A DNA stretch of 56,876 nucleotides, taken from positions 97,775 to 154,650 of the forward strand of contig CABZRR010000002.1 in assembly GCA_902528215.1 (NCBI GenBank), given 5' to 3'. Below the pieces are notes generated by a model, which had not been told where the DNA came from, ran no database searches, and was given only the letters and a program-made list of their open reading frames with translations. Source of the DNA: an uncultured SAR86 cluster bacterium (lineage in GTDB: Bacteria; Pseudomonadota; Gammaproteobacteria; Magnimaribacterales; D2472). The position numbers and the translations under genes were made by a program. Below, in pieces: positions 6,257 to 52,470 of the stretch (position 1 is its first letter; each line of letters starts with the position of its first letter).

Positions 6257-7006
6257 ATGATTAAAGATACATTAGAAACAGTAGTCATTATTCCAGCGAG
6301 GGGTGGTTCAAAAGGTCTGCCAGATAAAAATATATCCATGTTTCAGGGTCATCCTTTAATTGCATGGCCAATTCAATATGCTAAAAATAGTAAATTAGTA
6401 TCAGAAATAATCGTTTCAACAGATTCAGAGCCAATTGCGAAGGAAGCAATTGCATATGGAGCGAAAGTTCCTTTTATGAGAACTAATGAAGTTTCCTCCG
6501 ATTCTACGACAACCGAAGCTACTCTTCAGTTCTCACTAAATATGGCAGAGGAAACATTAAATAAAAGTTTTGATTTGTGCTGTTTTCTAACTTGCACTGA
6601 TCTTTTTAGAATTTCTAACTGGATTGATGAGGGCATAGAATTCTTAACAAAGAATCAAGATTATGAAAGTTTTTTTGTAGCAAATAAAACTCATAAAAAT
6701 TACTGGGAATATGACGCAAATAAAGAAAGATTTAGGAGACTTGCAAAGTGGATGTCTGTATATAGTAGCAGACAAATACGAAAGCCAATTTTTAGGGAGG
6801 ATACTGGATTAACTTGTATTTCAAGGTCAATCCTTTGGAGAGAACAGAAAAGAATAGGTGACTATAATAAAATTGTGGAAGATGATCGATTTGAAACTTC
6901 TATAGATATTCATTCAAGTTTTGATTTATTTCTTGCCAATGCTGTATTTGATTGGATGCAAGAAAATAAACCTGAAAACCTACCTCCTATTCCAGAAAGA
7001 GTATGA
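6257..7006 (+). CDS. Acylneuraminate/KDO-type cytidylyltransferase
   Basis: Predicted to transfer CMP from CTP to a 2-keto-3-deoxy sugar acid, giving a CMP-sugar donor. 249 residues, a single nucleotidyltransferase domain. The N-terminal nucleotide loop PARGGSKGLPDKN is typical of NeuA/PseF/LegF-type enzymes, followed by IVSTDSEPIAKEA and AKVPFMR. The usual QPTSP motif is replaced by CFLTCTDLFR, so the acceptor sugar cannot be named. It overlaps the next gene by 4 bp (ATGA), and that gene carries a second, degenerate copy of the same fold. No NeuB-type synthase is visible beside it. It starts the accessory glycan block after pgsA. Confidence 0.85.
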   Translation: MIKDTLETVVIIPARGGSKGLPDKNISMFQGHPLIAWPIQYAKNSKLVSEIIVSTDSEPIAKEAIAYGAKVPFMRTNEVSSDSTTTEATLQFSLNMAEETLNKSFDLCCFLTCTDLFRISNWIDEGIEFLTKNQDYESFFVANKTHKNYWEYDANKERFRRLAKWMSVYSSRQIRKPIFREDTGLTCISRSILWREQKRIGDYNKIVEDDRFETSIDIHSSFDLFLANAVFDWMQENKPENLPPIPERV

Positions 7007-8316
7007 AAGTTTCAATAATTATTCGTTCAAAAAATGAAGAAAAGTGGATAGGGCTGTGTCTCGAGTCTATCTTTTCACAAAGCTATGAGGATTTTGAAGT
7101 TATTTTGGTGGATAATAACTCAACAGATGGGACAGTTAAAAAAGCTAAAAACTGGCCTGTAAAATTACTCAAAATAGACAAATTTCTTCCTGGAGATGCC
7201 ATCAATCAGGGCATTAGAAAATCTTCAGGTGATATAATTATTTGTTTATCAGCTCATTGCATACCAACTAGCAAAAAGTGGCTTTCAAGCTTGATAAAAC
7301 CACTAGATGACCAATCAATTGCTGGTGTCTATGGAAAACAAATCCCTCTTTCATCTTCTAGCGCACTAAATAAAAGGGATTTATTCATAGTTTTTGGAGA
7401 TGAGCGTCGTGTTCAGGCAAAAGATACTTTCTTTCATAATGCTAACTCTGCTTTTACAAGAAAAACTTGGAATAAATTTCCATTTGATTCAGATGCAACA
7501 AATATTGAAGACAGACTATGGGGTCAAGAGGTAATCAAATCAGGTGCAAAAATAGCATATGAACCAGATGCATGTGTTTATCATCATCATGGAATTCATC
7601 AAGATGCAGATGAGGTAAGGGCCAGCAAGATTGTAAACATTATGGAAAATGATGCATTTTCTTCTGACAAATTATTTGAAGTTAAATCTAGTACTAAAGA
7701 TATAGCTATTATTTATGATATCAAAACCTATGATTCATTTAGGAGAACGCTGTTATTAAACACTATCAATAGCATTCAATCATCTAAGAATTTTTCTAAC
7801 ATTATTTTTACCGGCACTTGCATGAAAGCATTTGAAGTTTGTAAGGAAAAAGGAGTACAAATTATTAAAAGAGATGCAAAAGTAAGTGAAAGTCTTAGCA
7901 AGTCTATAAAAAATGCTCTAGAAACATTTGAATCCTCTAATTATGTTCCTGATTCAGTTACAGTTACATCCGTAAATTATCCACTTAAAGACCTCGAGAC
8001 ATATGAACTGCTTTTAGAAAGTTTTTATAATTCTGGCATGCTCCCTACAACTTTTGGCTATCTTGAAAAAAGACCAATGATTTCAATTGGCGGTAAGGAA
8101 AAGATAATTAATTCAGACCTTCAGCCAAGAGATTCAATTGAAAAGGGAGTTTATATATGTCCAATTGGTCACGGATATACAGATGCACCACAGAGCTTTA
8201 GATCTGAAAAAATTCTTTCTGGAAAGATAAATTTACTTCAAAATAATAATTCATCTAGCTTCCACGAAGTTGAATCTGCAGAGGATTTAATAAAGGATGA
8301 AGGGTTTAAAATTTGA
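7003..8316 (+). CDS. Family 2 glycosyltransferase fused to a cytidylyltransferase-like domain
   Basis: 437 residues in two parts. Residues 1 to about 215 are a GT-A family 2 glycosyltransferase: SIIIRSKNEEKWIGLCLESI, then ILVDNNSTDGT, then a segment with HHHGIHQ. Residues from about 228 to 400 resemble the middle of a NeuA-type cytidylyltransferase: FTGTCMKAFEVCKEKGVQI fits the ISTDS...YG region and VNYPLKDLETYELLLESF fits the SPLR...DI region. The nucleotide loop PARGGSKG is missing from this half. The second domain is therefore probably non-catalytic or regulatory (inference). ATG overlaps the preceding cytidylyltransferase stop, so the two are made together. Acceptor and donor are unknown. 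Confidence 0.78.
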   Translation: MKVSIIIRSKNEEKWIGLCLESIFSQSYEDFEVILVDNNSTDGTVKKAKNWPVKLLKIDKFLPGDAINQGIRKSSGDIIICLSAHCIPTSKKWLSSLIKPLDDQSIAGVYGKQIPLSSSSALNKRDLFIVFGDERRVQAKDTFFHNANSAFTRKTWNKFPFDSDATNIEDRLWGQEVIKSGAKIAYEPDACVYHHHGIHQDADEVRASKIVNIMENDAFSSDKLFEVKSSTKDIAIIYDIKTYDSFRRTLLLNTINSIQSSKNFSNIIFTGTCMKAFEVCKEKGVQIIKRDAKVSESLSKSIKNALETFESSNYVPDSVTVTSVNYPLKDLETYELLLESFYNSGMLPTTFGYLEKRPMISIGGKEKIINSDLQPRDSIEKGVYICPIGHGYTDAPQSFRSEKILSGKINLLQNNNSSSFHEVESAEDLIKDEGFKI

Positions 8317-9377
8317 AAAAACTTAGAATTGCCTTTTGTGGTCTTGGAAATGCCGCATCCTTTTATTTTGAAAAATTAAAAAAATTTTCTAATGAAGGAT
8401 CAATTGAGCTTATTGCAGGTTTTGATTCTGATGTTTCTCAAATTAAAAACTGGGAAAGTAAAACTAACATTCCTAGCTTTCAAGAAATCAATAAAGTATC
8501 TGATATGGATATTGATCTCGTGATTGTAACTACTCCCTCGGGCAGTCATACTCAAGATTCATTTTCATTTCTTAAACGAGGAGTAAATGTATTATGCGAA
8601 AAACCCATAGGGTTAATTATTGACGATATCAATTCAAATATTAAATATGCCCAAGATCAAAATTTAGAATATGGTGGGGTTTTTCAAAATCGGTTTAATA
8701 AACCTATTTCATTTGTCAAAAATAAAATTGAGGAGGGAGTTTTTGGAAGAATTATTTCATCATCTGTAAAGCTTCAATGGAGTCGTCCACAATCATATTA
8801 TGAAGATGGTTGGCACGGTACTTGGCTTCATGATGGAGGAGTTATTAATCAACAAGCTATTCATCACATAGATGCCTTATTTTTTCTTTTAGGTGATCCA
8901 AATGAAATGATGGGATTTTCAGGGAACGTTATGAATCAATTAGAGGCAGAAGATACTTTTGTAGGCGCAGGAACTTTATCAAAAGGTGGCTTTTTCACAA
9001 TTGAAGCATCAACAGCAATTAGACCTGATGACCTTCAAGCTTCTATAGAAATCATTGGCTCAGATGCACAAGTTGGAATTGGCGGCCCCGCTATTAATAA
9101 CTTAGATTATTTCATTGAAAAAGGTATGCCAGCCTCTGAGGAGGTCCTCGAAACTAATTCAGAGAAAGTAATTAATGGTTTTGGAAACGGTCACATGAAA
9201 ATGCTTCAAAAAATTATAGATCATTGGGAGCACTTTCAAGAATTAAAACTGCCAATAACTGCTTCAGAATCGTTAAATGCCGTTCAAGCGGTACATTGTT
9301 TTTATCGCTCAGTAGAAGATAACAAAGTAACAAATTTTGAAATTGGGTTAGGTTCAAATAAACTTGGGCGAAAATAG
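8313..9377 (+). CDS. Gfo/Idh/MocA family oxidoreductase
   Basis: NAD(P)-dependent sugar or polyol dehydrogenase, 354 residues. N-terminal Rossmann fold begins KLRIAFCGLGNAA; CEKPIG near residue 93 is the family hallmark; GGVINQQAIHHIDAL carries the probable catalytic His/Asp. The C-terminal half is the usual alpha/beta dimerisation domain. Start is a TTG at 8313 overlapping the previous TGA (TTGA); no better start fits, because the protein begins at the normal point with it. Together with the cytidylyltransferase and glycosyltransferase just upstream it probably oxidises a sugar nucleotide or free sugar in making an unusual glycan residue. Substrate not deducible. Confidence 0.87.
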   Translation: MKKLRIAFCGLGNAASFYFEKLKKFSNEGSIELIAGFDSDVSQIKNWESKTNIPSFQEINKVSDMDIDLVIVTTPSGSHTQDSFSFLKRGVNVLCEKPIGLIIDDINSNIKYAQDQNLEYGGVFQNRFNKPISFVKNKIEEGVFGRIISSSVKLQWSRPQSYYEDGWHGTWLHDGGVINQQAIHHIDALFFLLGDPNEMMGFSGNVMNQLEAEDTFVGAGTLSKGGFFTIEASTAIRPDDLQASIEIIGSDAQVGIGGPAINNLDYFIEKGMPASEEVLETNSEKVINGFGNGHMKMLQKIIDHWEHFQELKLPITASESLNAVQAVHCFYRSVEDNKVTNFEIGLGSNKLGRK

Positions 9378-10599: not shown

Positions 10600-11484
10600 A
10601 TGGCTAAGATTGAAAATAAATTTCCTGGTAAAGATGTATCTCCAGACGATTTAAAAACAAAAATACCATTGGTTGCTAATTACTCATCAAAAGCTTTTAA
10701 AGTTGCTGGCGTTACCTTTAATGGCAAGAAAATACCTGTAATGGCCGGTCCTAATATGGTTGAGTCTGAGGAATTGATAGTTAAGACTGCAAAGGCCGTC
10801 AAAAAAGCTGGCGCATCCTTTCTCAGGGGCGGTGCTTTCAAGCCATTAAGCTTTCCTTACAGAAGTAAAAAATATAATGAATCAGGCCTTGATGGTTTAA
10901 AGTGGCTTTCTGTTGCTAGGAAAGAGGCATCTATACCGGTAATCACGGAAATTATGGAATCTAAATATTTAGATCATATGATTGATGTAGCTGATATCAT
11001 GCAGATTGGGTCAAGAAATATGCAAAATTACCCTCTTATCACTGATGTTGCCTCAACAGGAAAACCAATAATGTTAAAGCGGCATTATGGCGCATCTCTG
11101 AGAGATTGGTTGGGAGCTGCAGAGTATGCACTAGTTGCAGGTTGTAAACACATTATATTATGTGAAAGGGGCATGTCTGTTGCGCATACTCATAAATCCT
11201 CATCTAGATATTTACTTGATCTTCAAGTCATTCCAGCAATTAAGGAACTCTCGTCAATTTCTGTTGCTTCAGATCCATCCCATGCTACATTTTGGAGAGA
11301 TTGGGTCCCGTCAATGTCACTTGCTTCAATATCTGCGGGTGCTGATTCAATTATGATAGAAGTACATCCCGATCCTGAGAATGCTGCTGTTGATCCCCTT
11401 CAGCCAATAAACTTCAAATCATTTCAAGGTTTGATGAATCAGATGGATAAAACGGCAAAAGCTGTTTCAAGAAAAATTTTGTAA
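10600..11484 (+). CDS. DAHP synthase (type I-beta)-like aldolase with Asn in place of the metal Cys
   Basis: Homologous to 3-deoxy-D-arabino-heptulosonate 7-phosphate synthase, which joins PEP to erythrose 4-phosphate. 294 residues: a 45-residue N-terminal extension, then a TIM barrel. DAHP-type motifs are LRGGAFKP, QIGSRNMQN, LKRHYGAS, ILCERG, SDPSHAT and IMIEVHPDPE. The family motif AGPCS reads AGPNM: Asn52 replaces the Cys metal ligand, while His228, Glu254 and Asp265 remain, spaced like the ligands of the Thermotoga enzyme. Asn at this site is known from metal-independent KDO-8-phosphate synthases. It overlaps the AroE-like gene by one base. It may supply the shikimate pathway or make another deoxy-ulosonate; context favours glycan chemistry. 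Confidence 0.85.
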   Translation: MAKIENKFPGKDVSPDDLKTKIPLVANYSSKAFKVAGVTFNGKKIPVMAGPNMVESEELIVKTAKAVKKAGASFLRGGAFKPLSFPYRSKKYNESGLDGLKWLSVARKEASIPVITEIMESKYLDHMIDVADIMQIGSRNMQNYPLITDVASTGKPIMLKRHYGASLRDWLGAAEYALVAGCKHIILCERGMSVAHTHKSSSRYLLDLQVIPAIKELSSISVASDPSHATFWRDWVPSMSLASISAGADSIMIEVHPDPENAAVDPLQPINFKSFQGLMNQMDKTAKAVSRKIL

Positions 11485-12308
11485 TGAAAGAAGCTTTTAT
11501 AATTGGCAAAGACGTTTCCAAAGGAGCAAGATCTCCAATTTTATGGAATGCTTGTTTTGAACATTTCAAAATTGATGCAAGCATGGTAGCGATAGACATA
11601 GAAAGCAATACTGAGTTAGTCGCCTTTTTAAATCAGCAAGTAAATAACTCGGATTTCCTTGGAGCCGCGGTAGCATCTCCAATTAAAGAAAATGTTTCAC
11701 AATTCTTTATAGAAAATTTTAAAATTGATTTTTATGGCCCAGCAAATTGTTTTTATAAAAGCGATGACAAGTTTATAATTTTAAATACAGATACTTTGGC
11801 AGCATTAGAAACCATAAGCATAAACTTTCCCAATTTAAATTTTTCTGATATTGCAATTTTAGGTTCTGGAGCGGTTGCGAAATCAATGGCCTATAACTTA
11901 CGTGATCATCAAGCAACAAAAACTATATATGCGAGGTCAAAGGCGCATTATGAAACCTTTAAGGGTTTTAATTTCAAGTTTAAGGAATTTTCAAATATCA
12001 ACAACAATTTCGATGAGCACGAAGTCATTGTAAATTGCACTGATGTTGGAAGGGATGGGAGCAACATTGAGTCTCCTATTGATATTAACATTATATTAGC
12101 TACAAATGCTAAAAATCAGTTTGTTTTCGATGTTAATTATATAAATGGACCATCAGCCCTTTTAAAAGCTTGTTCTTCAGCTGGAATTCAAAATGTTGAT
12201 GGTTCAAGAATGAATCTTATGCAAGCTGCAATAGCTTTTGGTCACTCTAATAAACTTATTGACTCAAAAGATGAAATTCTTGGAGTTATGGAAGCCGCAA
12301 TAATTTAA
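11484..12308 (+). CDS. Shikimate dehydrogenase-like protein with altered substrate site
   Basis: 274 residues, the usual AroE length; ATG shares one base with the preceding stop. AroE reduces 3-dehydroshikimate with NADPH. Compared by eye with E. coli AroE, catalytic Lys68 (SPIKENV), Asn88, Asp103 (LNTD) and the C-terminal Gln (MNLMQAA) are kept, as is the nucleotide loop LGSGAVAKS. However Ser14 of SxSP is Ala15 (GARSP), and the NVT of NVTxPxK is AVA (Ala62, Ala64). These are shikimate carboxylate/hydroxyl contacts, so the substrate may differ. Pairing with a DAHP-synthase-like gene suggests a two-enzyme branch. It could still be the cell's ordinary AroE if no other copy exists. Confidence 0.8.
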   Translation: MKEAFIIGKDVSKGARSPILWNACFEHFKIDASMVAIDIESNTELVAFLNQQVNNSDFLGAAVASPIKENVSQFFIENFKIDFYGPANCFYKSDDKFIILNTDTLAALETISINFPNLNFSDIAILGSGAVAKSMAYNLRDHQATKTIYARSKAHYETFKGFNFKFKEFSNINNNFDEHEVIVNCTDVGRDGSNIESPIDINIILATNAKNQFVFDVNYINGPSALLKACSSAGIQNVDGSRMNLMQAAIAFGHSNKLIDSKDEILGVMEAAII

Positions 12309-45108: not shown

Positions 45109-46215
45109 ATGAAAAAATTTTTAAAATCTATTTTTTACTCCGTTTGCATATTTTCTCTTAATTTAAGCGCACTTAACTTTGAACATTTAGTTTTAGAAGA
45201 GGGATTTAGTATTTCTATTTTTGCCGAAAATTTAGATTCTCCAAGACAGATGGCTGAGGGAAAGAATGGAACAATTTTTGTAGGTGAAAGAAACGGTAAA
45301 ATTATAGCTCTCAAGGATTTGGATAATAATGGTCAAATTGACTTAAAAATTATAGTTGCAGAAGGACTTACCTATTCGACTGGAGTAAGTTTATTTGACG
45401 GAGATTTATATTTTTCAGAAATAAGTCAGATCTGGAAAATTGAAAAAATTGAAGATTGGATTGCTAATTACTCTGTAAATTCAGAGTTGCCAAAAAAAAT
45501 ATTGGTAGTTGATAATTTGCCTGAAGACAAATGGCATGGTTGGAAGTGGCTCCAACATGATGCAGATGGAAGTCTTTATTTTAATGTAGGTGCTCCATGT
45601 AATATTTGTTTATCAGAAAATCCACAATTTGCTTCAATTTTAAAATACAAAGATGACGAGCTTAGTTATGTAGCCAAAGGAGTTAGAAATACTGTTGGAT
45701 TTGATTTTCACCCAATTAGTAACAAGCTTTATTTCACTGATAATGGGAGGGATTGGCTTGGTGATGATTCTCCGTCTTGTGAGCTAAATAGACTTGATTA
45801 TGAGGGCCAATTTTTTGGATATCCCTTCAAACACGCATCAGATGTTATTGATCCCGAGTTTGGTGATATTAATCCCGGCTACGATTTTGTAGATCCCATA
45901 TTAGAACTTGGGGCTCACGTAGCACCAACCGGAGTGAGTTTTTATGATGGTGAAATGTTCCCTGAAAAAATGCGAAATAATCTTTTTATTGCATTGCATG
46001 GATCATGGAATCGAACTGAAAAAGTTGGTTATAAGCTCATTCGTGTTGAGTTAGATGAGGAAGGCAATGTTTTAAGTTCATCTGATTTTGTGAGTGGTTG
46101 GCTAAGAGATGAAAAGGTTTCTGGAAGACCATCCGCGCCAATTATGAAAAGCGATGGAAGCCTATTACTATCTGATGATAAGGCAAATGTTATTTATAGA
46201 ATTACATATAAATAA
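45109..46215 (+). CDS. PQQ-type soluble aldose/sorbosone dehydrogenase
   Basis: 368 residues with a signal peptide (to about residue 20, LNLSALNF), beta-propeller fold. MAEGKNGTIFVGERNGKII, GVRNTVGFDFHPISNKLYF, ALHGSWNRTEKVGYKLIRV and APIMKSDGSLLLSDD match the GSDH/sorbosone dehydrogenase family, which oxidises sugars in the periplasm using PQQ. Whether PQQ is truly used is unknown; many family members are uncharacterised. A modest SD (CAGG) precedes the ATG. The 33-base divergent gap to the WecA-like gene implies overlapping promoters. It is followed 5 bp later by a Gfo/Idh gene. Confidence 0.85.
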   Translation: MKKFLKSIFYSVCIFSLNLSALNFEHLVLEEGFSISIFAENLDSPRQMAEGKNGTIFVGERNGKIIALKDLDNNGQIDLKIIVAEGLTYSTGVSLFDGDLYFSEISQIWKIEKIEDWIANYSVNSELPKKILVVDNLPEDKWHGWKWLQHDADGSLYFNVGAPCNICLSENPQFASILKYKDDELSYVAKGVRNTVGFDFHPISNKLYFTDNGRDWLGDDSPSCELNRLDYEGQFFGYPFKHASDVIDPEFGDINPGYDFVDPILELGAHVAPTGVSFYDGEMFPEKMRNNLFIALHGSWNRTEKVGYKLIRVELDEEGNVLSSSDFVSGWLRDEKVSGRPSAPIMKSDGSLLLSDDKANVIYRITYK

Positions 46216-46220
46216 TTATT

Positions 46221-47243
46221 ATGAAAGTAGGCATAGCTGGATATGGCGTTGTTGGAAAAAAAAGATACTCTTCAATAGTTAAAAATTCTTCTTTTGAGGT
46301 AACTGATATTTCAGAAGAAAATTCGATTGCAAGAGAGGAGATCCCTAATGGAGTAAATGTTTTTGATAATTACCAAGATCTAATCTTAGAGGCTGATTTA
46401 GATGTTATTTTTATAAGCTTGCCAAATAAATATGCCTCAGATGCTGTCTCATTAAGTCTAAAAAAAGGTCTTAATGTTTTTTGTGAAAAGCCGCCGGCAA
46501 GAACACTCGATGAGCTTTTGAAGGTTCAGAAAATTTATGAAAAACATCCCTCTCAGAAATTAATGTATGGATTCAACCACAGATTTCATCTATCTGTAGA
46601 AGAAGCTAAATCAATTATTGATAGCAAAATTTTTGGAAACGTCATAAATTTAAAAGGTGTTTATGGAAAATCACAAATGATAAGCTTTAATCAAACTGAC
46701 TGGCGAACTAAAAGAGAAGAATCAGGAGGAGGCATATTATTAGATCAGGGAATACATATGCTTGATCTAATCAGATATTTATCTGGAGAGGATTTTTCAA
46801 AAGTTTTTTCATTTATTGATAATGCATTTTGGAATTATGATGTCGAGGATAATGCATATGTATTGATGCAATCTCCAAAAGGGATAGTGGCGCAAGTGCA
46901 TTCATCGGCTACTCAGTGGAGGCATATATTTAATTTAGAAATTACCCTTCAAAAAGGTTCACTCCTGTTAGGAGGCATACTAACAGGTTCAAAAAGTTAT
47001 GGCGATGAAACGCTTCGCATAATCACTTCTAATCCTGAGAAAGATAAAGGGAATCCAAAAGAGTCAACTAAAAAATATAATGAAGATGTATCGTGGGATA
47101 ATGAAATAAAGTATTTTTCAAATTGCTTGGCTAAAAACTTAGAAATTGAAAGAGGCAGCATTGGGGATGCTATAGAAACAATGAAGTTGGTTGAAACTAT
47201 CTATAAAGCAGATCCTGAATGGAAAAAAAAATATTATAATTAA
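46221..47243 (+). CDS. Gfo/Idh/MocA family oxidoreductase
   Basis: 340 residues. Starts MKVGIAGYGVVGKKRYSS (nucleotide loop), with NVFCEKPPARTLDEL at about residue 90 and GGGILLDQGIHMLDLIRYL as the catalytic segment. It differs from the copy at 8313 and is not a recent duplicate. First gene of a run with isomerase, phosphatase, dehydrogenase, aldolase and KdsB. It probably oxidises a sugar intermediate of that pathway. Its 3' end is 13 bases before the next start. Confidence 0.88.
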   Translation: MKVGIAGYGVVGKKRYSSIVKNSSFEVTDISEENSIAREEIPNGVNVFDNYQDLILEADLDVIFISLPNKYASDAVSLSLKKGLNVFCEKPPARTLDELLKVQKIYEKHPSQKLMYGFNHRFHLSVEEAKSIIDSKIFGNVINLKGVYGKSQMISFNQTDWRTKREESGGGILLDQGIHMLDLIRYLSGEDFSKVFSFIDNAFWNYDVEDNAYVLMQSPKGIVAQVHSSATQWRHIFNLEITLQKGSLLLGGILTGSKSYGDETLRIITSNPEKDKGNPKESTKKYNEDVSWDNEIKYFSNCLAKNLEIERGSIGDAIETMKLVETIYKADPEWKKKYYN

Positions 47244-47256
47244 ATTAGGATTCATC

Positions 47257-47835
47257 ATGGGCTCATCTTCGTCATTCTCAAATAATTACTTGGAGTATTT
47301 AACTGACTTAATTTCTCAATTAGATCGAGAAGCGATAGGTCAATTTGCAGATTTACTATTAGAATCCAGAGAGTCTCAAATTACTACATTTTTTCTTGGT
47401 AATGGAGGCAGCGCATCTACGGCCACTCATTTTGTTAATGATGTATCCCTTGGAAGTCGACAATTTGAGAAACCTTTTCGAGCAATCAGCCTTTGTGATA
47501 ATCAAGCTGTAATAACTGCAATCGCAAATGATGATGGATATGAAAATATTTTTTTACAACAGCTCCAAACATTAGCAAAGCCTGGAGATAATATTGTATG
47601 TATTTCTGCCTCAGGTAACTCTAAAAATTTAATTAAAGCTGTTGAATATGCAAAAGAAAATGAAATTTTTGTAGTGGGGTTAACTGCCTTTGATGGCGGA
47701 TATTTAAAGAAAAATTGTAACTTAAATATTCATGTCCCAACCAAAGTAGGTGAATATGGTCCTGCTGAAGATTTGCATATGGTGGTTTGTGGTTTAGTTG
47801 GTTCCTATTTTAGAGAAAAATTCTTGAATGCTTGA
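47257..47835 (+). CDS. SIS-domain phosphoheptose isomerase-like protein (GmhA family)
   Basis: 192 residues from the ATG at 47257, chosen for its SD TTAGGA six bases upstream; an in-frame ATG at 47191 lies within the previous gene. GmhA isomerises sedoheptulose 7-phosphate. The SIS core is clear: FFLGNGGSASTATHFVND, ITAIANDDGYENIF, ISASGNSKNLIKAVEYA. Of the zinc ligands in E. coli-type GmhA, the His is kept (His58), but Glu65 appears as Asp62 and the C-terminal Gln/His pair is missing (AEDLHMVVCG). Substrate may therefore be another ketose or aldose phosphate. It overlaps the phosphatase gene by 8 bp. Confidence 0.82.
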   Translation: MGSSSSFSNNYLEYLTDLISQLDREAIGQFADLLLESRESQITTFFLGNGGSASTATHFVNDVSLGSRQFEKPFRAISLCDNQAVITAIANDDGYENIFLQQLQTLAKPGDNIVCISASGNSKNLIKAVEYAKENEIFVVGLTAFDGGYLKKNCNLNIHVPTKVGEYGPAEDLHMVVCGLVGSYFREKFLNA

Positions 47836-48568
47836 CTTAAATCATTGCCTCAATACTGCAAAGTCTGCTGCTTTATTAGCTGGCCAGTTTTTATTAAGTG
47901 CAAAAGGAAAAAATCTAGAAGTCTTATCTAATACTGGGAGAGATCTAAAGCTTCAGCTTGATATTGATACAGAAAAACTTATTAAAAAGCATATAAGTTC
48001 TGATAGTCCTTATCCAATTTTAGGAGAAGAGACAGGCTCAAATGGAGATCTTGATAGCTTTTATTGGATTGTAGATCCTATAGATGGAACCTCAAATTTT
48101 TTAAGGGGCATCCCCATAAGCTGTGTTTCAATTGCCTTAATGCAAGATACGAAACCCTTGCTTGGAGTAATATATGATTTTAATCATGATGAAATATATT
48201 GGGGCCATAAGGAATCAAAGGCATATATTGATGACATGGAAATATGTGTTTCATCCATTTCAAAAAAAAGCGAGTCTACACTTGTGACTGGAATTCCAGC
48301 CAAAACAAACTATTCTGATACCGAGTTCAGTGAAATGATAGCTAATTTCCAGGCGTGGAAAAAAATTAGAATGATAGGGTCTGCAGCTATGGCTGCATGT
48401 TATATAGCCTCAGGAAAAGCTGAGACTTATCAAGAAGATGGAATTTTTCTTTGGGATATTGCTGCTGGCGCTGCTATTGTAAATGCTGCAGGAGGCCTTG
48501 CATCTATTACTAATATTCAAACTGATTATCGGGTAAATGCAAAATTTACCAATAATATAATAGAGTAA
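47828..48568 (+). CDS. Inositol monophosphatase-family sugar phosphatase
   Basis: 246 residues. Metal and catalytic motifs are GEETGS, WIVDPIDGTSNFLRGIPI and WDIAAGAAIVNAAGG, all intact, so it should be an active Mg-dependent, lithium-sensitive-type phosphatase (IMPase, HisN or CysQ related). Context between a sugar-phosphate isomerase and a dehydrogenase/aldolase pair suggests it removes phosphate from a sugar phosphate, perhaps in the place of KdsC in KDO synthesis (inference). Coupled to the upstream isomerase by an 8-bp overlap. Confidence 0.87.
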   Translation: MLDLNHCLNTAKSAALLAGQFLLSAKGKNLEVLSNTGRDLKLQLDIDTEKLIKKHISSDSPYPILGEETGSNGDLDSFYWIVDPIDGTSNFLRGIPISCVSIALMQDTKPLLGVIYDFNHDEIYWGHKESKAYIDDMEICVSSISKKSESTLVTGIPAKTNYSDTEFSEMIANFQAWKKIRMIGSAAMAACYIASGKAETYQEDGIFLWDIAAGAAIVNAAGGLASITNIQTDYRVNAKFTNNIIE

Positions 48569-48572
48569 TAAT

Positions 48573-49538
48573 TTGAATACTATAGATACAGTTGCTGTTG
48601 CATCAAGATCCTTTTCAAAAAATGATGGCTTGGTAAAAAATCTCCAAAGCAAGTACTCATCAGTCATATTAAATAATTTTGGTAAAACTCTCCAAGGAGA
48701 TGAGTTGGTTGACTTTTTGATGCCCGCAACAAAAGCAATAATAGGTATTGAAGAATTAACTGAGCCAGTTCTTGCAAAACTTTCCAAGCTAAAAGTCATT
48801 AGCAAGTATGGTGTTGGTTTGAACAATCTTGATTTAGAACTCCTAAAAAAAAGAAACATAAGATTAGGATTCACTCACGGTGTAAATAAACAGAGTGTTG
48901 CAGAATTGACTCTTACGCTAATACTAATTGGTCTAAAAAAAATTCAGGACAATAACATAGATATAATCAATGGTAACTGGTCGCAAGAAAAAGGGTCAGA
49001 GCTTTATGGAAAAAATATTGGATTGCTTGGATTTGGAAATATTGGGCAAAAATTGGTTTCACTTTTGCAGCCTTTTAACTGCAGGATCTCATTTCTTGAT
49101 GAAAAAAAATTTTCTAAGGAGGAGATATCAGACATTGCATCAAAATTAAATTATGAACCTAATTTGATAAAGCAAATGTCTTTACAGCAGGTATTAAAAG
49201 AATCAGACATATTAAGTATTCATCTTCCCTTGACTGCATACACTGAGAATCTAATCTCGTTAGGTGAACTAAATGAATTGAGATCAAATGTTTGCATTGT
49301 TAATACTGCAAGAGGCGGGATTGTAAATGAGAAGGATCTTTATATTTTTCTATCTGAAAATCCTTGCAGTTTTGCAGGATTTGATGTGTATAAAGAAGAG
49401 CCTGCTATAAATAATCCATTGTTTAAATTAAAAAACTTTTTTGGAACTTCGCATCGATCTAGCCTGACAAATGAAGGTATTCTTTCAATGGGGATGGCTG
49501 CTATTAATGGATTAGATGATAATATTAATATCACCTAA
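48573..49538 (+). CDS. D-2-hydroxyacid dehydrogenase (phosphoglycerate dehydrogenase-like)
   Basis: 321 residues, D-isomer-specific 2-hydroxyacid dehydrogenase. VISKYGVGLNNLDLELLKKR, NAD loop IGLLGFGNIGQKLVSLL, Arg in VNTARGGIVNE, Glu in YKEEPAINNPL and His in GTSHRSSLTNEG form the expected active site. No C-terminal ACT domain, unlike SerA of E. coli. Start is TTG at 48573, four bases after the phosphatase stop; no ATG fits. In this run it could interconvert a 2-keto and 2-hydroxy acid of sugar origin, for example next to the aldolase. Confidence 0.87.
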   Translation: MNTIDTVAVASRSFSKNDGLVKNLQSKYSSVILNNFGKTLQGDELVDFLMPATKAIIGIEELTEPVLAKLSKLKVISKYGVGLNNLDLELLKKRNIRLGFTHGVNKQSVAELTLTLILIGLKKIQDNNIDIINGNWSQEKGSELYGKNIGLLGFGNIGQKLVSLLQPFNCRISFLDEKKFSKEEISDIASKLNYEPNLIKQMSLQQVLKESDILSIHLPLTAYTENLISLGELNELRSNVCIVNTARGGIVNEKDLYIFLSENPCSFAGFDVYKEEPAINNPLFKLKNFFGTSHRSSLTNEGILSMGMAAINGLDDNINIT

Positions 49539-49550
49539 CAGACTAACTTT

Positions 49551-50279
49551 ATGAGTAAACTTTCTATCGGTACATGGTTAAGCTTGCCTAATGAATCTAT
49601 AGCCGAAATTTTTGCTAATGCTGGGTACGAATGGATTGTAATTGACCTTGAGCATAGCAGCATTGGCATTAATCAAGCTGAACAATTAATTAGAGTTATA
49701 GATTTAGCAGGGTCAAAGCCATTTGTTAGATTGTCTGCGCATGATCCTTCACAGATAAAAAGAGTATTAGATGCTGGAGCAAAAGGCATTTTGGCTCCTA
49801 TGATAGAGACTGTTAATCAAACAGAGAGCATAATTTCAGCATGCCAATATCCACCTGATGGAGTTAGAGGTATGGGTCTAGCTAGAGCTCATGGATATGG
49901 GGAAAATTCTGCAAAAAAAAAATATATCAATCAAAAAGTAAACGAAATTGAGATATATGCTCAAATTGAATCTAAAAAGGGCTTAAAAAATTGTAAAGAA
50001 ATTTTTGCTAAGAATATAAATGGTTATTTTATTGGTCCATATGATCTTTCAGCGTCCTTAAATAATCCAGGAAAATTTGATACCGATGAATTTTATAATG
50101 CTGAAAAAATTATATTATCGGCAGCAAAAGAGGAGGGCATCAAATGCGGATATCATCTTGTTGAACCCGACAAAGACAAAATTAATGAACTTAATGATAA
50201 GGGATATAATATGATTGCTTTTAGTGTTGATATCAGAATGTTAGATGTCACTGCAAGACTTCCCTTTAATTTAAAATGA
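49551..50279 (+). CDS. HpcH/HpaI-family 2-keto-3-deoxy acid aldolase
   Basis: 242 residues, TIM-barrel class II (metal) pyruvate aldolase. Family sites are visible: WIVIDLEHSSI (His), FVRLSAHDPSQIKRVLDAGA (Arg), IYAQIESKKG (metal Glu) and GPYDLSASL (metal Asp). Relatives reversibly split 2-keto-3-deoxy acids into pyruvate and an aldehyde. It directly precedes kdsB with an ATGA overlap, so a biosynthetic role making a 2-keto-3-deoxy sugar acid for CMP activation is plausible, replacing the PEP-dependent KdsA. Catabolic use cannot be ruled out. Confidence 0.87.
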   Translation: MSKLSIGTWLSLPNESIAEIFANAGYEWIVIDLEHSSIGINQAEQLIRVIDLAGSKPFVRLSAHDPSQIKRVLDAGAKGILAPMIETVNQTESIISACQYPPDGVRGMGLARAHGYGENSAKKKYINQKVNEIEIYAQIESKKGLKNCKEIFAKNINGYFIGPYDLSASLNNPGKFDTDEFYNAEKIILSAAKEEGIKCGYHLVEPDKDKINELNDKGYNMIAFSVDIRMLDVTARLPFNLK

Positions 50280-51034
50280 AAAATACTTTAGGAGTTATTC
50301 CGGCAAGAATGGCCTCATCTCGATTTCCAGGAAAACCGCTTGAAAAGATTCTTAATATCCCAATGTTAGCTCACTGTTATGAAAGAGCGCTTTTATCAGG
50401 TGTCTGCGATAATTTAGTGATTGCAACACCAGATCAAGAAATCATAGATTGGGCTAATCAATTTCAAATACCTTCGGTATTAACGAGTCATTCTCATAAG
50501 AGAGCTACTGAACGGGCAAAAGAGACATTAGATATTCTTGCAAATGATGGTCTATATTATGATTTAGTGCTTTTGTTGCAGGGTGATGAGCCTCAAATTT
50601 TTCCTGAAGATATTGGCAATCTAAAACAAGCATTTTCTAATAAAGAACTTGAAGTAGTAAATTTAGTTTTTCCAATTTCAGATGATGGCCTTGAAGATCC
50701 CAATGTAGTAAAAGTAGCTCTTGACAAGAATCTAACTATCCATTTTTTTTCTCGATCGCATATTCCACATGACTGTATAAGCGGATATAGACAGCTAGGC
50801 ATGATTGGCCTTACAAAAAAAGCTCTTAATGACTATGTAAGTTTTTTACCAACAGCTCTTGAGGAGGTTGAATCTATAGATATGATGAGACTTATTGAAA
50901 ATGATTTTTTAATACAAGGAGTTTTATCTGCTTCTCCAATCCTTGGTGTTGATACCTTACAAGATTTAAAAAAGGTAGAAAAAATAATGATTAATGATAA
51001 ATTTGTTAATTCATACAAAGAAAAATATATCTAG
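50276..51034 (+). CDS. kdsB: 3-deoxy-manno-octulosonate (KDO) cytidylyltransferase
   Basis: Activates KDO, or a related ulosonate, with CTP to the CMP-sugar. 252 residues, normal. LGVIPARMASSRFPGKPLEK, LVIATPDQEIIDWA, LLLQGDEPQIFPEDI, GYRQLGMIGLTKKAL and GVDTLQDLKKV follow the KdsB plan. It is distinct from the NeuA-like gene at 6257, so the window codes for two CMP-sugar synthetases. Last gene in the six-gene run; the photolyase start is 15 bases later. In E. coli kdsB lies near lpxK; here its company is sugar-acid enzymes. The substrate could be KDO or an analogue. Confidence 0.88.
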   Translation: MKNTLGVIPARMASSRFPGKPLEKILNIPMLAHCYERALLSGVCDNLVIATPDQEIIDWANQFQIPSVLTSHSHKRATERAKETLDILANDGLYYDLVLLLQGDEPQIFPEDIGNLKQAFSNKELEVVNLVFPISDDGLEDPNVVKVALDKNLTIHFFSRSHIPHDCISGYRQLGMIGLTKKALNDYVSFLPTALEEVESIDMMRLIENDFLIQGVLSASPILGVDTLQDLKKVEKIMINDKFVNSYKEKYI

Positions 51035-51048
51035 TAGGATTCTATTTT

Positions 51049-52470
51049 ATGAGAGGTGTTGTTTGGTTTAGAAAAGATTTAAGGATTGATGATAATCCTG
51101 CATTAACTAATGCATTAGATAGTTGTGAGGAGGTTATTGGAATATATATTTTCTCTGAGCTCCAGTGGAAGGCTCACAATGAATCCAATGTAAAGCTTGA
51201 GTTTCTTATTGAGAATTTAACCCTTTTAGAAACGTCATTATCAAAATTAAATATTCCATTGGTAACGATTAAGACTGAATCTTTTGATTCTTTGCCGAAA
51301 GATTTATGTTCATTTGTAGGCTCAAATAAAGTTGAACAAATTTTTTGGAATAATGAATTTGGAGCTAATGAATCGAAAAGAGATTTGCTATCTTGCACAA
51401 TGCTTGAAAAAGAAAATGTAAAGACTTCAAGATTTGATGATCAAGTTATTTATGAACCAGGATATCTTAAAACAGGACAAGGTAAACCTTTCTCTGTTTT
51501 CACTCCCTTTAAAAGAAGATGGATTGAAAATTTTGAAATGGATTTTTTGGACATCAATTACAAACACTCTGCTAAAAAACCTGTAAATATTGAAAGTGAT
51601 TTATCCAAAATAGAATTTGCAAGAACCCATTCCGTCAACATGGATCTTTGGCCAGCAGGTGAAAGCGCAGCTCAAGAAAGACTTTCTAATTTTTTAAACT
51701 TAAAAGCAGAGTCATATAGTGAATCAAGAAATTCTCCGATCCTTGATGGAACAAGCAGAATCTCTCCTTATTTTGCGTTGGGTATTTTGTCTCCAAGAAG
51801 ATGTATTTTAGAGGGTTTAAAGCTTAACAACTATGAATTTACTTCTGGCAATAAAGGTATCTGCAAATGGATTGATGAAATAGTTTGGAGAGAATTTTAC
51901 AGAAACATAATGCATTGTTTTCCAAGAGTTAGCAAAAATAGACCCTTTCAAATACATACTGAGAATCTTAAATGGCGATACTCAGAAAAAGAGCTGCAAG
52001 CTTTCTATTCAGGCAATACTGGCTTCCCGATAGTTGATGCAGGCATAAGACAAATGCTTGCTGAGGGCTGGATGCATAATAGATTGAGAATGGTGGTGGC
52101 AATGTTTTTTACAAAAAATATGCTTCATGATTGGAGACTTGGTGAAAAATTCTTTATGGAAAATTTAATTGATGGTGACTTTGCATCTAATAATGGAGGC
52201 TGGCAATGGAGTGCTTCAACTGGAACAGATGCAGCACCGTACTTTAGGATTTTTAATCCGATAACGCAGTCCACAAATTTTGATCCTGAGGGGAAATTCA
52301 TCAAACAATTTATACCTGAGCTTAATATGCTTTCTAGTAAAGAAGTTCATTTTCCCACAGCAGATCTTTTAACAAGCTTCAGTTATCCCTCTCCGATTTT
52401 GGATTTAAAATCTTCCAGATTAAGAGCTATTGAAGTTTTCAAAGAAAATAATGTAACTAGAGATGCATAA
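51049..52470 (+). CDS. phrB: Deoxyribodipyrimidine photolyase (class I CPD)
   Basis: Light-driven repair of cyclobutane pyrimidine dimers. 473 residues. N-terminal antenna domain (RGVVWFRKDLRIDDNPALTN), then a FAD-binding helical domain from about 200: DEIVWREFYRNIMH, GFPIVDAGIRQMLAEGWMHN, SNNGGWQWSASTGTDAAPYF. The Asn in SNNGG that contacts flavin N5 is present, as in CPD photolyases rather than plant cryptochromes. SD AGGA at 51036-51039. Fits a sunlit surface-water lifestyle. Confidence 0.96.
   Translation: MRGVVWFRKDLRIDDNPALTNALDSCEEVIGIYIFSELQWKAHNESNVKLEFLIENLTLLETSLSKLNIPLVTIKTESFDSLPKDLCSFVGSNKVEQIFWNNEFGANESKRDLLSCTMLEKENVKTSRFDDQVIYEPGYLKTGQGKPFSVFTPFKRRWIENFEMDFLDINYKHSAKKPVNIESDLSKIEFARTHSVNMDLWPAGESAAQERLSNFLNLKAESYSESRNSPILDGTSRISPYFALGILSPRRCILEGLKLNNYEFTSGNKGICKWIDEIVWREFYRNIMHCFPRVSKNRPFQIHTENLKWRYSEKELQAFYSGNTGFPIVDAGIRQMLAEGWMHNRLRMVVAMFFTKNMLHDWRLGEKFFMENLIDGDFASNNGGWQWSASTGTDAAPYFRIFNPITQSTNFDPEGKFIKQFIPELNMLSSKEVHFPTADLLTSFSYPSPILDLKSSRLRAIEVFKENNVTRDA

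Follow-up and report, generated by a model that had tools for sequence, protein, structure and literature searches.

We analysed a 56,876-nucleotide stretch of DNA (the window) from an uncultured SAR86 cluster bacterium (assembly GCA_902528215.1, contig CABZRR010000002.1, positions 97,775 to 154,650), in which six adjacent plus-strand genes at 46221..51034 place a class II aldolase beside a divergent member of the KdsB family. The host assembly holds 1,175,422 bases in 30 contigs and is 81% complete. The first gene encodes an IolG-like Gfo/Idh/MocA oxidoreductase of 340 residues (46221..47243) with intact EKP and DxxxH motifs, followed by a GmhA-like SIS-domain sugar-phosphate isomerase (47257..47835) with conserved HFxND and GP(A/V)ED. 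The latter is given from its ATG start; a TTG-started open reading frame reaches further out, to 47191. Next come a sugar phosphatase of the inositol-monophosphatase family (IMPase, 47828..48568), matched by Pfam, and a phosphoglycerate dehydrogenase (PGDH)-like D-2-hydroxyacid dehydrogenase (2HADH, 48573..49538), which starts with TTG and retains the Arg-Glu-His motif residues. The run ends with an HpcH/HpaI-family aldolase (49551..50279), assigned by Pfam match and set apart by tree and motifs, and a putative cytidine monophosphate (CMP)-ulosonate synthetase, KdsB2 (50276..51034), assigned from family scores and motifs. An earlier sequence-only reading of the window had described these six frames, with overlaps of 8 and 4 bp; we recovered all of them, with the 8-bp overlap between the SIS and IMPase genes and the 4-bp overlap between the aldolase and KdsB2 genes, and each protein fell into the Pfam superfamily then named. 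Judged from their sequences, the catalytic motifs of all six proteins look intact.

None of the six proteins reached an NCBIfam equivalog cut-off, and we therefore treat them as divergent members of their families. The SIS protein scored 101 bits against GmhA (TIGR00441, cut-off 209), and the HFAEE motif of Escherichia coli GmhA is replaced by HFxND. Scores were similarly short of the cut-off for the IMPase against HisN (TIGR02067, 122.7 bits, cut-off 275), the 2HADH against SerA (TIGR01327, 169 bits, cut-off 454) and the aldolase against HpaI (TIGR02311, 156.5 bits, cut-off 368.8). The aldolase lies outside the HpaI/YfaU branch and belongs to the HpcH/HpaI superfamily (PF03328, 135 bits), with the catalytic His, Arg, Glu and Asp present as DLEH, R60, E140 and D165. 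KdsB2 scored 142.2 bits against kdsB (TIGR00466, cut-off 155.2), a cut-off that alone cannot separate KdsB2 from ordinary KdsB since complete KdsB2 relatives score 123-167. The only subfamily model passed was KdsB PRK05450.1-5 (210 bits, cut-off 193). Structure models of the aldolase and KdsB2 searched with Foldseek confirmed the folds and gave nothing further.

KdsB2 differs from ordinary KdsB on the side of the sugar. It keeps the cytidine triphosphate (CTP) loop and the catalytic metal aspartates (QGDEP, GVD and PARxxSRxPGKP), and KdsB2-type proteins in general retain QGDE and, in the C-terminal xVD motif, the Asp that binds metal; the roles of the CTP and metal residues are described for KdsB (PMC3149649). 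In contrast, the sugar-side motifs SGx[DE]R, HxGIY and LEQLR read RATER, QLGMI and ESIDMMR in the host protein, and more generally RA[TS][ED]R-type, Q-G-[MIL]-I-type and ES[IV]DMxR in KdsB2-type proteins. The canonical motifs are those of E. coli KdsB, and the same motifs occur in Protein Data Bank (PDB) chains.

In the phylogenetic tree, a branch supported at 96/87 divides the cluster-type aldolases from the catabolic enzymes, YfaU and AbHpaI. SwHKA sits on a very long branch beside the cluster-type clade with weak support (81/71). A histidine, His202 (codon 50154..50156, plus strand), is near-diagnostic of the clade: all clade rows that were read there carry it, as does one catabolic row (L128), and it aligns with Phe210 of SwHKA, whereas HpaI-type enzymes, YfaU among them, have Leu. 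F210 of SwHKA is named in PDB titles, and a review reports that SwHKA, in converting hydroxypyruvate, depends on an active-site Phe that touches C3 of the enolised nucleophile (PMC7610986). The aldolase shares with HpaI, YfaU/RhmA, GarL and SwHKA the fold and the metal and base residues (best sequence matches 105-117 bits, Foldseek TM of about 0.8), but differs from them in forming its own clade with GPYDLS, HxVEP, SVDxRML and His202 and in having glycan genes as neighbours.

The cluster aldolase was found in 22 of 107 genomes of the SAR86 family, in four of ten genera, and these copies are 53-96% identical to the host protein. We read 20 SAR86 neighbourhoods. The order Gfo-SIS-IMPase-2HADH-aldolase-KdsB, whose conservation the sequence-only reading had left as a check, recurs at one chromosomal site, and the aldolase and KdsB2 genes adjoin in all intact copies that we read. 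The site is flanked by a PQQ (pyrroloquinoline quinone)-dehydrogenase-like gene and by a photolyase-like or aldehyde-dehydrogenase-like gene, named by reading. In the window these conserved markers, which lie outside the pathway, are a PQQ-sugar-dehydrogenase-like gene on the left (45109..46215, plus strand) and a photolyase-like gene on the right (51049..52470, plus strand), both named from their translations. An ELM1-family (ELM1/GtrOC1-like) gene lies 3' of KdsB2 in many SAR86 relatives, two of which were covered by the family search; in the lipooligosaccharide loci of Acinetobacter, PF06258 is predicted to comprise glycosyltransferases (PMC4172580).

The aldolase and the KdsB-family cytidylyltransferase form a recurrent unit across phyla. 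A scan of genome contigs gave 79 aldolase loci, with neighbours labelled by hidden Markov models and phmmer; the named contigs that carry the SAR86-type clusters are themselves SAR86, and 36 non-SAR86 loci from many phyla, taken as windows of differing length, fall in the aldolase clade. A KdsB2-type gene is present in the fetched stretch of 29 of these 36, and in two more (L114 and L118) a NeuA-like cytidylyltransferase adjoins the aldolase. No such cytidylyltransferase was seen in the neighbourhoods of the catabolic outgroup loci (L127-L148). Most of the non-SAR86 clusters also carry a PGDH-like 2HADH. Three types of neighbourhood can be told apart; the aldolase, the cytidylyltransferase and the PGDH-like 2HADH recur in all three, and the other genes are swapped. 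The first has Gfo, SIS, IMPase and 2HADH (for example Polynucleobacter L109). The second has Gfo, SIS, a short-chain dehydrogenase/reductase (SDR), a TIGR04425 cyclase and 2HADH (Cellvibrionaceae L091). The third has 2HADH, an epimerase, a HAD phosphatase and a 6PGL-like (6-phosphogluconolactonase-like) gene (L121, names by reading). In the second type, TIGR04425-type genes, of the AroB-related sugar phosphate phospholyases, stand beside Gfo, SIS, 2HADH, aldolase and KdsB2 genes of the kinds found in SAR86, whereas the SAR86 cluster has an IMPase and no TIGR04425-type gene was seen there. A TIGR04326 surface-carbohydrate gene comes next in Pelagibacter, with a sub-cut-off match in Polynucleobacter. 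Plasmid records gave many aldolase matches below 60% identity, and an Acuticoccus plasmid that we examined carries the module. Because the order recurs in SAR86 and the same families group in other phyla, we consider the arrangement to lie beyond chance; the module is real and conserved, and probably biosynthetic, as judged from its genes.

The sequence-only reading had proposed that the aldolase stands in for KdsA in the synthesis of 3-deoxy-D-manno-oct-2-ulosonic acid (KDO), and a search for kdsA, kdsC and kdsD speaks against this. The host genome carries kdsA (G000:C11:18336-19103; TIGR01362, 375.8 bits, cut-off 314) and kdsD (TIGR00393, 332 bits, cut-off 204), and the closed SAR86 chromosome CP097973.1 (G048) has kdsA, kdsD and an ordinary kdsB as well as the cluster. 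With kdsA at 375.8 bits, a KDO route in which the aldolase replaces KdsA was rejected. Across the family, kdsA is present in 97 of 107 genomes and in all 19 of the better ones, and kdsD exceeds its cut-off in 21 of the 22 cluster genomes, the host among them. In contrast, kdsC (TIGR01670) was over its cut-off in just one of the 107 genomes. Since kdsC is generally missing in SAR86, with or without the cluster, its absence is uninformative about the cluster, and we discarded its loss as the mark of an alternative route. By our reading of the searches, 15 of the 22 cluster genomes also have an ordinary full-length kdsB of at least 200 bits; the remainder have a fragment (three genomes) or none (the host, G037, G040 and G004). 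The ordinary kdsB of G034 is flanked by msbA-lpxK-fusion-like and murB-like genes (named by reading translations), and the 9 kb of DNA around it gave no match in the host assembly in a search run without a positive control. The corresponding host region may sit in an assembly gap. We do not rely on the apparent lack of an ordinary kdsB in the host, because the assembly is 81% complete and the G034 region is unmatched.

We propose that the cluster encodes an accessory route to a second ulosonic acid, CMP-activated, distinct from KDO and made alongside it, and from the sequences we give this reading a probability of roughly 0.65. From the genes we infer each reaction, its direction, the order of the reactions and the product. 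The SIS isomerase, the IMPase-type phosphatase and the Gfo/Idh enzyme would convert a sugar phosphate into a free sugar acceptor. The aldolase would join this acceptor to pyruvate itself or to a derivative substituted at C3, hydroxypyruvate for instance, giving a 2-keto sugar acid that KdsB2 would activate with CTP. A transferase, for which the adjacent ELM1/GtrOC1-like gene of several SAR86 relatives is a candidate, would then put the sugar on a surface glycan. Like the canonical KDO pathway of KdsD, KdsA, KdsC and KdsB, this scheme has an isomerase, a phosphatase, an enzyme that joins carbon to carbon and a KdsB-family cytidylyltransferase, but it uses an HpcH/HpaI aldolase in place of the phosphoenolpyruvate (PEP)-dependent KdsA, has changed KdsB motifs, and coexists with KdsA, KdsD and ordinary KdsB. 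The KDO-like acid of the sequence-only reading is thus retained as a second sugar and dropped as KDO itself; an aldolase-made acid of this kind stays the best reading because the gene order is conserved and the aldolase/KdsB-family pair recurs across phyla.

The sequence-only reading had taken the two dehydrogenases to suggest extra oxidation of the sugar, and the conserved 2HADH may instead supply the nucleophile. In a narrower and less likely form of our proposal, the nucleophile is hydroxypyruvate and the product a CMP-activated 3-hydroxy-2-ulosonic acid related to D-glycero-D-talo-oct-2-ulosonic acid (Ko). The PGDH-like dehydrogenase would supply the hydroxypyruvate, possibly from glycerate, or from 3-phosphoglycerate together with a phosphatase. 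The constancy of the aldolase, the cytidylyltransferase and the PGDH-like 2HADH in all three variants, while the acceptor-type genes vary, is consistent with this form, as are the placing of His202 at the position of SwHKA Phe210, with its reported contact to C3 of enolised hydroxypyruvate, and the existence of HpcH/HpaI enzymes that accept hydroxypyruvate (PMC7610986). Against it, no gene for a phosphatase lies in the stretch fetched for the cyclase variant, and His202 could have its role with a different substituent at C3 or with the acceptor. Should hydroxypyruvate be the nucleophile, the product would resemble that of Ko synthesis by KdoO in being a 3-hydroxy ulosonic acid, but the cluster would build the hydroxyl in before activation. 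A different reading, in which the aldolase makes KDO itself from arabinose and pyruvate and KdsB2 activates it, accounts for the KdsB-family member, the isomerase and the phosphatase, and for the second kdsB not found in the 81% complete host assembly. We regard it as the most doubtful of the readings, since kdsA and kdsD are present, most cluster-bearing relatives have an ordinary kdsB, and the sugar-side motifs of KdsB2 are changed. It is slightly less improbable, although still unlikely, that the aldolase cleaves its substrate and that the cluster serves sugar-acid salvage or catabolism, with KdsB2 activating a compound made elsewhere. The characterised relatives of the aldolase are mostly catabolic, which favours cleavage, but the cytidylyltransferase is a constant partner, a transferase adjoins some loci, and the clade stands apart from the catabolic aldolases.

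Several observations weigh against our proposal of a second ulosonic acid. The reactions of class II aldolases can run in both directions, and most known members of the family are catabolic. The SIS gene is missing in SAR86 loci L056, L059, L061, L062 and L064, and both SIS and Gfo are missing in L060 and L063. SAR86 genomes that lack the cluster keep the IMPase alone at the site. Most relatives are metagenome-assembled genomes or single-cell assemblies, which makes absences weak evidence, and the neighbourhood counts are approximate because many loci stop at contig edges and the windows are unequal. In the AroB-like cyclase variant, the aldolase may act on a ketone or on an acceptor that does not resemble a sugar; some ketones are also accepted by HpcH enzymes (PMC7610986). 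The solo copies at the site, together with a tree in which cluster and solo IMPases are intermixed, weakened the view of the IMPase as a gene dedicated to the cluster; from these sequences, it may have a second role or be an older resident of the site.

Aldolases of this kind also occur in predicted viral contigs. In IMG/VR contigs we found 37 aldolase loci at 26-39% identity. A KdsB2-type match is present in four of these, with the aldolase and 2HADH in L150, L153 and L175 and with the aldolase in L155. Approximately 13 of the 37 have a 2HADH match and approximately eight a weak NeuA-like match; the rest have the aldolase only. A later family search picked up a further cytidylyltransferase, beyond the four KdsB2-type loci, in L168 (4551-8574), where a GT29 sialyltransferase-family gene, the cytidylyltransferase, the aldolase, 2HADH and an epimerase lie in a row. 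In most of the remaining viral loci no cytidylyltransferase was found near the aldolase. PHROGs matched six of ten neighbour proteins from L168, L153 and L175. The matched families are of glycan, methyltransferase, hydrolase or unknown type, and those with names include phosphoheptose isomerase, HAD hydrolase, methyltransferase and heptose kinase/adenylyltransferase. Because no capsid, tail or terminase family was among these matches, the viral origin of the contigs is that given by the IMG/VR label. Phage records gave two weak aldolase matches at 29% identity.

To our knowledge, the characterised routes to CMP-ulosonic acids (KDO, sialic, pseudaminic and legionaminic acids) all use PEP-dependent synthases of KdsA or NeuB type to build the carbon chain, and a search of the open-access literature, judged by titles and the opening of abstracts, turned up no relevant work on these genes. 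We suggest, with considerable reserve, that the module represents a widespread kind of surface-sugar pathway. In it, a dedicated class II aldolase whose active site holds a His would condense hydroxypyruvate with varied acceptors, and its partner cytidylyltransferase would turn the products into CMP-3-hydroxy-ulosonic acids. If true, this would parallel the KdsA/NeuB logic without the use of PEP, and would be common to several phyla and some predicted viral contigs. A recurrent module of this type, present in SAR86, Prochlorococcus, Pelagibacter, Nitrospina and others, would indicate a group of new surface sugars, which may be met by phages and grazers.

The IMPase kept at the SAR86 site is one candidate for a KDO-8-phosphate phosphatase in the kdsC-poor, kdsA-rich SAR86. 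In genome G010, the cluster is replaced at the same chromosomal site (L200, 5134-7346) by a KdsB-like gene in reverse orientation and a HAD-like gene, and the IMPase remains. In G093 (L208, 6123-9122), a DRE-TIM (hydroxymethylglutaryl-CoA-lyase-like) aldolase gene is followed by KdsB-like and HAD-like genes, all but the KdsB match named by reading; this is possibly an unrelated second aldolase-cytidylyltransferase cassette. Within the window, a glycan region contains a gene similar to 3-deoxy-D-arabino-heptulosonate 7-phosphate (DAHP) synthase (10600-11484; TIGR01361, 261.9 bits, cut-off 267.75), directly followed by a shikimate-dehydrogenase-like gene (11484-12308); a stronger DAHP_synth_1 match lies elsewhere in the host genome (G000:C2:72187-73056). 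Finally, three successive genes at 6257-9377 of the window encode a second cytidylyltransferase (PseF-like, 120 bits of 206), a glycosyltransferase-like protein and another Gfo/Idh protein.

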